DNA of 64,000 nucleotides. Source: Chloroflexota bacterium (lineage in GTDB: Bacteria; Chloroflexota; Anaerolineae; Aggregatilineales; J027). The DNA lies in contig JABFGB010000023.1 in assembly GCA_013112715.1 (NCBI GenBank), positions 1-64,000 on the forward strand, read 5' to 3'. The notes beneath the pieces were generated by a model. It worked only from the letters and a program-made list of their open reading frames with translations. It did not search any database and had not been told where the DNA came from. The position numbers were made by a program, and so were the translations under genes. The number at the start of each line of letters is the position of its first letter. Position 1 is the first letter of the stretch. Positions 50,998 through 53,103 of this stretch are shown piece after piece.

Positions 50998-52773
50998 TCA
51001 TCCACCAAGTTTGGCGCGTTCGGCTTCGACGACTGAGACATCCAATTTCTTGATGAGCGCTTCCGGTTCACGCAGTTTTTGACCGGGTTGCAGCGTGCTC
51101 TTTTCCCAGCGACCCACTGCACGGCTGCCATCATAAATGAGGGCTTGGTGTGATTGGGTGGTTTCTTGGTATTCGGTGATAATCTGTTCACCAAACAGTG
51201 GCGCATCATACCCCAGATAGCTATGTACCTTCTCGGAGGTGAAGGGCAGGAACGGCGCAAACAGGATTTTCAGATTATCAATGCAGCGCAAGGCCGTATA
51301 AATCGTCGTTGCGGCAGCCTGTTTATCTTGCTTAATCGCGTCTCCAAACCAAGGAGCACCGTCGAGATAAGCATTGACCTCCGACGCCAAGCGCATCGCT
51401 TCACTCAGGGCATCCCGTAATTTGACAGCCTCTAAACGTTGACCAACACTTTCAAACCCCGCCTCGATTTTGGCAAGGATTTCGCGGTCAAAATCCCGTA
51501 GGTCGCCGGGGGTAGGCACAACGCCCTCCCAGTGTTTATAGGCGAATTTCAGCACGCGGTTGACCAGATTGCCCCATTTTGCCAAGAGTTCGTTGTTGTT
51601 ACGGGCGACAAAATCATCCCATTTCCAATCGCTGTCCCGATTTTCGGGCATGACCACCGTCAAATAGTAGCGTACCGCATCAGGGTCATAGGCATCCAAC
51701 AAATCGGGCATGGTGATAAACCATTTACGACTCTTGGAAAGTTTGCGCTCTTCCAAATTCAGATATTGGTTGGCGGGTACATCATAGGGTAGGTTGATGG
51801 GGGTTGGGTCGCCCTCATTATAAATACCGCTGATTCCCAACAACTCGGCAGGCCAAATGATCGTATGGAAGATAATGTTGTCCTTACCCAAGAAATTGTA
51901 GACACGGGCTTGTGGGTTATACCACCACTGTTTCCATGCGTCCGGTTGTCCATTGTTATGCGCCCACTCGATGCTGGCCGTGAAATAGCCCATCAGCGCC
52001 TCGAACCACACATACAGGCGTTTTTCTGACCATGCCGGGTCGTCAATTGGCACTTTGATGCCCCAATTCACATCACGGGTCATGGGTCGTCCACGCTGTT
52101 CCGGTACTTTGCTGAGAGATTCGTTTAGCACATTCTCGCGCCAGTGATCCCGACCTTTTTCCAGATATTCGGTTAGGGGTTCGCGGAATTTGCCGAGGTC
52201 AAAAAAGTAGTGAGTGGTGCTGCGGCGGACGGGGGTGCTACCATCGCGTTTGCTGCGCGGGTTAATCAAGTCGGTGGCGTTGAGTAGATTGCCACAATTA
52301 TCGCATTGATCGCCGCGTGCGTTTTCATAGCCACAGACCGGACATGTGCCTTCGACATACCGATCTTCTAAGAAGCGATTTTCGGTAGTGCTGTAGAGGC
52401 GTTCTTGTTCTTCAGGATAGAGATAACCACGCTCCAACAGCAGGGTAAAAATATCCTGCGCGACGCGGTGATGGTTCTCGGTATCGGTATGGGTATACAA
52501 ATCAAAGCTCATGCCAGAACGTTTGAGCGTGTCTAGAAAGCGCACATGATATTTCTCAAATAGTTCGCGGGGGGTGATGCCCTGTGCGTCAGCCTCGACC
52601 ATAATCGGCGTGCCATGTGTATCAGAGCCACTGACCATCAGGGTATGATTGCCCTTGAGACGATGATAGCGGGCAAAAATATCGGCGGGGAGAAACGACC
52701 CCGCGATGTGTCCGGCGTGTAGATCGCCATTCACATAGGGCCATGCGACGGAAACGTGAATAAAATCACTCAT
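50998..52773 (-). CDS. metG: Methionyl-tRNA synthetase
   Basis: A 591-residue class I synthetase that charges tRNA(Met). The HIGH-type motif reads HAGH (YVNGDLHAGHI), the KMSKS-type motif reads KLSKS (ERKLSKSRKWF), and zinc-knuckle cysteines are in CPVCGYENARGDQCDNCG. There is no C-terminal EMAP/tRNA-binding domain. An AAAGGAG site lies 11 bases before the ATG. The gene is preceded by a leader transcript with a Met-rich short frame and an intrinsic terminator (52897-53103), so attenuation is possible. Confidence 0.95.
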   Translation of the reverse strand: MSDFIHVSVAWPYVNGDLHAGHIAGSFLPADIFARYHRLKGNHTLMVSGSDTHGTPIMVEADAQGITPRELFEKYHVRFLDTLKRSGMSFDLYTHTDTENHHRVAQDIFTLLLERGYLYPEEQERLYSTTENRFLEDRYVEGTCPVCGYENARGDQCDNCGNLLNATDLINPRSKRDGSTPVRRSTTHYFFDLGKFREPLTEYLEKGRDHWRENVLNESLSKVPEQRGRPMTRDVNWGIKVPIDDPAWSEKRLYVWFEALMGYFTASIEWAHNNGQPDAWKQWWYNPQARVYNFLGKDNIIFHTIIWPAELLGISGIYNEGDPTPINLPYDVPANQYLNLEERKLSKSRKWFITMPDLLDAYDPDAVRYYLTVVMPENRDSDWKWDDFVARNNNELLAKWGNLVNRVLKFAYKHWEGVVPTPGDLRDFDREILAKIEAGFESVGQRLEAVKLRDALSEAMRLASEVNAYLDGAPWFGDAIKQDKQAAATTIYTALRCIDNLKILFAPFLPFTSEKVHSYLGYDAPLFGEQIITEYQETTQSHQALIYDGSRAVGRWEKSTLQPGQKLREPEALIKKLDVSVVEAERAKLGG

Positions 52774-52896
52774 GGGTTGGGTTGCTCCTTTGCAAGTCTC
52801 CTGTGCATTTTAACGAACGAACGGCTTTGCGAACAGACCATGATTTGCCCTCTTGACATGTAGTAGGCTCGAAAATTGGCGGTCACTCCTATGGGA

Positions 52897-52929
52897 AATA
52901 AAAAACCGCCGGAGAATTTGTCCGACGGT
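52897..52929 (-). terminator. Intrinsic terminator in the metG leader
   Basis: On the minus strand ACCGTCGGA...TCCGGCGGT (9-bp stem with one G-T pair) is followed by TTTTTTATTT. It ends about 124 bases upstream of the metG start and would stop transcription before metG. Confidence 0.85.
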
Positions 52930-52955
52930 TCCGCACTGACTTAGCTGGTGATGGG

Positions 52956-53054
52956 CTATCCACGCCCAAAACGCCAGCGTCGAGCATTTCTCGACCCCAG
53001 CCAGCGCGGGTTTCTCATCATCATTCCAATTATTGTCAGCGGTTGATTTTCCAT
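52956..53054 (-). CDS. Putative 32-residue leader peptide with Met-Met-Met
   Basis: The ATG at 53054 opens a 32-codon frame (MENQPLTIIGMMMRNPRWLG..., ending RRWRFGRG) upstream of metG and inside the region bounded by a promoter and a terminator. Codons 11-13 (53024-53016) are three consecutive ATG. Leader peptides that control amino-acid or synthetase genes often have a run of the sensed codon, so this fits methionyl-tRNA sensing. No strong ribosome site precedes the first ATG; a GGAATG lies just before the ATG run, so an internal start is possible. It could also be a stand-alone basic peptide. Confidence 0.45.
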   Translation of the reverse strand: MENQPLTIIGMMMRNPRWLGSRNARRWRFGRG

Positions 53055-53097
53055 AGTTCGTTCACAAGTCACATTACAAATTTACTGTATAGAGGTC

Positions 53098-53103
53098 ATT
53101 GTA
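53098..53103 (-). promoter_or_regulatory. Extended -10 for the metG leader transcript
   Basis: On the minus strand TGC-TACAAT (TACAAT at 53098-53103) is an extended -10. The predicted transcript start is near 53091, about 195 bases upstream of the leader terminator. The -35 is weak. Confidence 0.55.

Follow-up and report, generated by a model that had tools for sequence, protein, structure and literature searches.

A conserved methionine-codon leader and intrinsic terminator upstream of metG in Anaerolineae, a probable ribosome-mediated attenuator

The window analysed here, a stretch of 64,000 nt from a Chloroflexota bacterium, carries on its minus strand metG, encoding methionyl-tRNA synthetase (MetRS), whose protein scores 475 bits against TIGR00398 (cutoff 336) and which is the only MetRS gene in the genome. 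A sequence-only reading of the window had described a -10 element, a 32-codon frame with three Met codons and a terminator before this gene; these elements are present, at coordinates that hold to within 1-2 bases. The parts of the locus, in the order in which they would be transcribed, are as follows.

53098..53103, minus strand: -10 hexamer TACAAT of the leader promoter, with an upstream TG (extended -10); read from the sequence, with TG-TACAAT or TG-TAAAAT in congeners
52956..53054, minus strand: leader ORF of 32 codons, MENQPLTIIGMMMRNPRWLGSRNARRWRFGRG, from ATG at 53054 to TAG at 52956
53016..53024, minus strand: uninterrupted run of three Met codons, proposed to be regulatory; Met clusters precede metG in relatives
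52999..53009, minus strand: 5' strand of helix P1, CCGCGCUGGCU; from the fold and an own-partner test (p=0.0002, an optimistic value, see below)
52979..52995, minus strand: hairpin P2, GUCGAG-AAAUG-CUCGAC; from the fold, with an equivalent hairpin in family f4
52944..52978, minus strand: hairpin P3, which holds the leader stop codon (52958-52956); from the fold, with equivalent helices in f4
52931..52941, minus strand: 3' strand of helix P1, AGUCAGUGCGG, abutting the terminator; from the fold and the own-partner test
about 52900..52930, minus strand: intrinsic terminator, AACCGUCGGA...UCCGGCGGUUUUUU; -15.9 kcal/mol, a block 87% invariant in the genus
52807..52835, minus strand: promoter-like block TGTTCG-N17-TAAAAT, a possible unattenuated promoter; in a conserved island past a non-conserved spacer, with TTACAAT-like -10s in relatives
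50998..52773, minus strand: metG, methionyl-tRNA synthetase, 591 aa; TIGR00398

Read directly, positions 53106-53098 give the extended -10 TGCTACAAT. The start, frame and Met run of the leader are free of indels across five congeners, and no Shine-Dalgarno sequence is evident before the window's leader ORF. About 125 nt separate the terminator, a hairpin of ACCGTCGGA...TCCGGCGGTTTTTT predicted at -15.9 kcal/mol, from the metG ATG. On the far side of the leader lies a divergent neighbour, a DeoR/LsrR-like regulator running from 53331 onwards on the plus strand.

We compared the sequences upstream of metG in 60 relatives up to order rank, in named genome records and in about one genome per family across the class and phylum, using dinucleotide shuffles, reverse strands, window tiles and the metG of other lineages as chance controls. 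A short ORF with at least three ATG in eight codons precedes metG in 57 of 102 distinct Anaerolineae-type regions; the same scan scores 1.9% of dinucleotide shuffles, 7/102 reverse strands and about 5% of window tiles, and 0/25 metG upstream regions of other lineages. An intrinsic terminator follows the leader in most loci, generally 15-56 nt past the leader stop. The pattern of the Met cluster varies among leaders (MMM, MMRM, MTMAMQMEM), with offsets of whole codons, as in MNTVIRVSTGVWSAMMRMPRLPWSDPLRRWRCARG (L019), MKTNCATTFSMMMVMRNPRRDRRRALAPA (L091), MKFTSAFPMVPMTMAMQMEMFTCAKWKA (L114) and MIFIMMRNECVK (L016); that the Met codons move by whole codons and are split by other codons argues that they are read as codons. 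Between the Met codons and the terminator, the five congeners are invariant at 77-93% of leader positions, compared with 13-17% in the flank upstream and 3% in the spacer that immediately follows the terminator. By these comparisons, the promoter, the Met-clustered short ORF, the intrinsic terminator and metG form a conserved unit. The distribution across the class is patchy: outside the window's order, 7 of 40 sampled loci (from 6 families) have a leader, and no leader was found at 20 sampled loci outside the class. Several leader-less loci have a long ORF close to metG, which may therefore be in an operon there. Two database records look like mis-assigned MAGs. L104, under the title Pleurocapsa minor, shares an identical metG upstream region with an Anaerolineae relative (L061), and L102, entered as Bacteroidetes bacterium, has a metG that is 60% identical.

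In most relatives the leader promoter stands close to the start codon. Of 88 leaders, 55 have a -10 hexamer 5-10 nt ahead of the leader ATG, at 6-7 nt in 46 of those 55 (L019, L023, L024, L062, L065, L097 and L124 among them), mostly accompanied by a TTGACA-like -35 some 17 bp farther up. Since a -10 at this spacing places the expected transcription start at or beside the A of the leader ATG, such leaders are probably transcribed as leaderless mRNAs. Together with the indel-free frame in the congeners, this start geometry is an indirect sign that the leader ORF may be translated. The window's genus differs in this respect from most relatives: its -10 lies 43 nt from the leader ATG, and its leader is not leaderless.

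The leader RNA of the window folds far better than its shuffles (z = -4.1). The sequence-only reading had pointed to CGCTGAC (53041-53035) and GTCAGTG (52940-52934), which are both present and complementary, as an alternative pairing. It overlooked that GTCAGTG belongs to a stronger 11-bp helix, P1, formed by CCGCGCTGGCT (53009-52999) with AGTCAGTGCGG (52941-52931). This helix begins 6 nt past the last Met codon, encloses P2 and P3, and ends directly before the terminator. A ribosome stalling at the Met codons would occlude P1, which thus sits where an anti-antiterminator should.

Comparison across loci separates two architectures. Type A, found in sister lineages (for example L060, L062, L065, L091-L099, L116, L124 and L125), has a stretch of the ORF past the Met codons that is complementary to the 5' arm of the terminator, in sequences that differ by group: GACAGACGG/CCGTCTGTC, GGCAGCC/GGCTGCC, GCAGGCGG/CCGCCTGC and ATGGAGAGC/GGCTGTCCAT (the last with one mismatch). 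When partners were swapped between loci, own antiterminator pairs were more stable than swapped pairs (mean -16.1 vs -12.3 kcal/mol, permutation p=0.0002), although this and the other swap tests take no account of relatedness among the sequences, which makes their p values optimistic. Type A leaders keep the Met codons and lack the P1 structure, and their arrangement is that of classical attenuators. At five of these loci (L091, L093, L094, L099 and L125) the terminator is predicted to form with probability 1.0 while the ribosome is at the stop codon, a value that drops to 0-0.7 once the ribosome occupies the Met codons; for most other type A loci the equilibrium prediction remains near 1 even then. 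By these sequence comparisons, type A carries a classical antiterminator covarying with its terminator.

Type B is the architecture of the window, of its family and of a large part of its order. Here it is P1 whose own partners pair better than swapped ones (-25.5 vs -20.3, with p=0.0002, and p=0.0002 again with other boundaries, both subject to the same optimism), whereas complementarity between the ORF and the terminator arm gives no own-partner advantage (p=0.51). In single-locus tests, no locus was significant for both the antiterminator and P1. A MAFFT alignment over all type B leaders put P1 out of register between families, and for this reason we relied on swap tests and on a covariance model from a single family instead. 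To build that model (R1) we used alignment A2, which holds nine leaders from a single other family, f4, with the window outside the training set; the alignment contains 7 pairs changed on both sides, and its covariation score exceeds all 500 shuffles. R1 matches the window leader at 55.8 bits (E=4e-11), its sole match in the 5.55-Mb genome. Within the order it matches in 31 of 151 genomes, once in each and directly before metG wherever metG was mapped. It detects most P1-bearing leaders, and gave no match at the four type A loci or the four outgroups tested.

We considered three candidates for the pairing that would switch the terminator in the window. The pairing of CGCTGAC with the P1 3' strand, though present in the window, shows no own-partner advantage across relatives (p=0.12). 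In the second, the 3' strand of P1 would pair with the terminator arm, at about -3 kcal/mol in the window. Folding of the nascent RNA with P1 masked predicts this pairing, but across loci its own pairs are weaker than swapped pairs (p=1.0). The third, a later segment of the ORF with the terminator 5' arm, had also been proposed from the sequence and is the pairing for which type B gives the p=0.51 above, compared with p=0.0002 in type A. In the window, forcing this pairing, CUGGCGUUUU with GGAACCGUCGG, costs about 9 kcal/mol relative to the nascent optimum as long as the terminator 3' arm has yet to be transcribed; at a further locus, L041, the cost is 3.2 kcal/mol. None of the three alters the predicted terminator probability in the window, which under equilibrium folding stays at 1.0 at every ribosome position tried; comparison across relatives supports neither of the two pairings proposed from the sequence. 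A separate feature seen in several families (L019, L023, L043, L048, L054 and L058) is an extended hairpin past the Met codons, resembling CCGUG-[P2 stem]-GAUGG, whose formation excludes part of P1 and P3. This hairpin could be the missing type B switch state.

The reading that we favour, and consider very likely on the comparative evidence, is that the leader is a ribosome-mediated transcription attenuator, a leader-peptide device that senses methionyl-tRNA and controls metG. This is what the sequence-only reading had proposed, with the Met codons as regulatory codons, and conservation in relatives, the check that it had suggested, strongly supports it. When charged tRNA is ample, the ribosome would reach the leader stop, P1 and the terminator would form, and most transcripts would end before metG. 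When it is scarce, the ribosome would stall on the Met codons and cover the 5' strand of P1, and more polymerases would enter metG. Judged from sequence, both the sensor, a ribosome reading the Met codons, and the output, a terminator before metG, can be proposed with good confidence. How the two are connected is a different matter: complementarity backs a terminator-disabling rearrangement in type A only, with none identified in the window's type B. Against an attenuator stand the probable second promoter past the terminator, the window leader's lack of both an evident Shine-Dalgarno sequence and a leaderless start, the patchy occurrence in the class, the absence of a comparatively supported type B antiterminator and the predicted termination at every ribosome position.

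That predicted strength of termination in all states also suits the best-surviving alternative, in which the leader is a separate terminated small RNA with little role in metG control, and metG is transcribed essentially from its own promoter at 52835-52807. Past the almost unconserved spacer, the congeners share a second conserved island (52774-52835), which holds TGTTCG-N17-TAAAAT and the metG Shine-Dalgarno sequence, so that a promoter-like island stands right before metG, split from the leader. Relatives have TTACAAT-like -10s at similar places, and 13 of 73 have an extended -10 there against 3.4 expected. Exclusive transcription of metG from a promoter downstream of 52897 had been named in the sequence-only reading as the result that would speak against attenuation, and to this extent it is partly a live prospect: a conserved block resembling such a promoter does lie there. 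A leader that was independent of metG would, however, hardly be expected always to adjoin it, to use codons that match the amino acid of the downstream synthetase, or, in type A, to retain an antiterminator complementary to the terminator, and we regard this alternative as unlikely. Instead, metG probably has both an attenuated and an unattenuated promoter; the second, lying past the terminator, could bypass the attenuator, and basal metG expression would probably come from it.

Distinctly less probable is a structured RNA (a riboswitch or a tRNA-binding leader) in which the ATG triplets form an RNA motif and are not codons. Structure is strong in the window's lineage and some sequence beyond the Met codons is conserved in part of the order, which would suit such an RNA; yet the number of ATGs varies and shifts by whole codons in open frames, the start codon sits at the promoter-defined 5' end, and type A has the Met codons without P1. 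A search of the leader with all families of Rfam 15 gave only chance-level matches far below gathering (best E 0.4). Those to sroD and to an Aggregatibacter sRNA (E about 0.4) rest largely on the terminator hairpin, and we discarded them as chance. A T-box at metG, suggested by the string GTGCGGAACCG before the terminator, was likewise rejected, with no RF00230 match at either the gathering or a permissive threshold. That the ORF encodes a small functional peptide, its place before metG being secondary, is highly improbable: an RLPWS...RRW-like C-terminal sequence is conserved in part of the order, but this stretch coincides with strands of P1, P2 and P3, and outside this group nothing recurs except the Met cluster and the residues that the antiterminator segment encodes.

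T-boxes (RF00230) do occur in the window's genome, nine in all and all elsewhere than metG; those assigned lie at a methyltransferase gene (L002), trpD (L003), thrS (L004), trpE (L005) and serS (L007). The genome mixes T-boxes with what is probably leader-peptide attenuation. T-boxes control synthetase genes by antitermination, as is proposed for the metG leader, and differ in that they bind tRNA directly, whereas sensing at metG would be by the ribosome.

The enterobacterial pheST leader is a classical ribosome-mediated attenuator of a synthetase gene. Leader-peptide attenuators have also been described for trpS and leuS in Streptomyces (PMC1262725) and for alaS and thrS in S. lividans (PMC8079986). 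With all of these the metG leader shares a short ORF rich in cognate codons and proposed stalling, and several of them likewise have terminators or leaderless starts; it differs in its amino acid and gene (methionine and metG), in its phylum, Chloroflexota, and in having two architectures, of which the window's has no recognised antiterminator. The histidine leaders of hisS/hisZ in Firmicutes (PMC2965389) are similar as leader-peptide attenuators of a synthetase gene in an otherwise T-box-using lineage, and differ in amino acid and phylum. One Met leader, metL, has been proposed before metNIQ in Streptomyces lividans TK24 as a Met-dependent attenuator (PMC8079986); it is a leaderless ORF with Met codons, as is probable for many of the metG leaders. 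It precedes a transporter operon, has scattered Met codons and no clear terminator, and is known from one organism, whereas the metG leader keeps a terminator and a Met cluster in many genera. In the searchable literature, outside which most subscription literature lies, we found no published leader-peptide attenuator of metG, nor any in Chloroflexota. What appears to be new, judging from sequence, is the combination of amino acid and gene, the phylum and the second structural solution; the logic would be that of known ribosome-mediated attenuation.

Leader-peptide attenuation is textbook material for Trp, His, Phe, Leu, Thr and Ile. For methionine such a device is awkward because MetRS, which charges both initiator and elongator tRNA, also supplies the initiator tRNA needed to start leader translation. 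A cluster of 3-6 Met codons should stall the ribosome before initiation fails altogether. Were leader initiation nevertheless to fail, type A would expose its antiterminator and type B would form P1 and terminate, so that the charging of both tRNAs by MetRS would lead the two types to respond oppositely. The composite picture, of an Anaerolineae Met-specific metG attenuator in two architectures, with type B replacing a classical antiterminator by a ribosome-sensitive helix that abuts the terminator, and with type A reading through and type B terminating if leader initiation fails, is one that we put forward tentatively and on balance consider doubtful.

For the organism, the leader very probably raises enzyme output when charged methionine tRNA runs low. 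For the wider group, it would extend ribosome-mediated attenuation to a phylum that is rich in uncultured members and uses T-boxes for other synthetases, and it makes two structural solutions available for comparison. A conserved Met leader before metG also makes it testable how a cell separates a shortage of elongator Met-tRNA from a failure of initiation.
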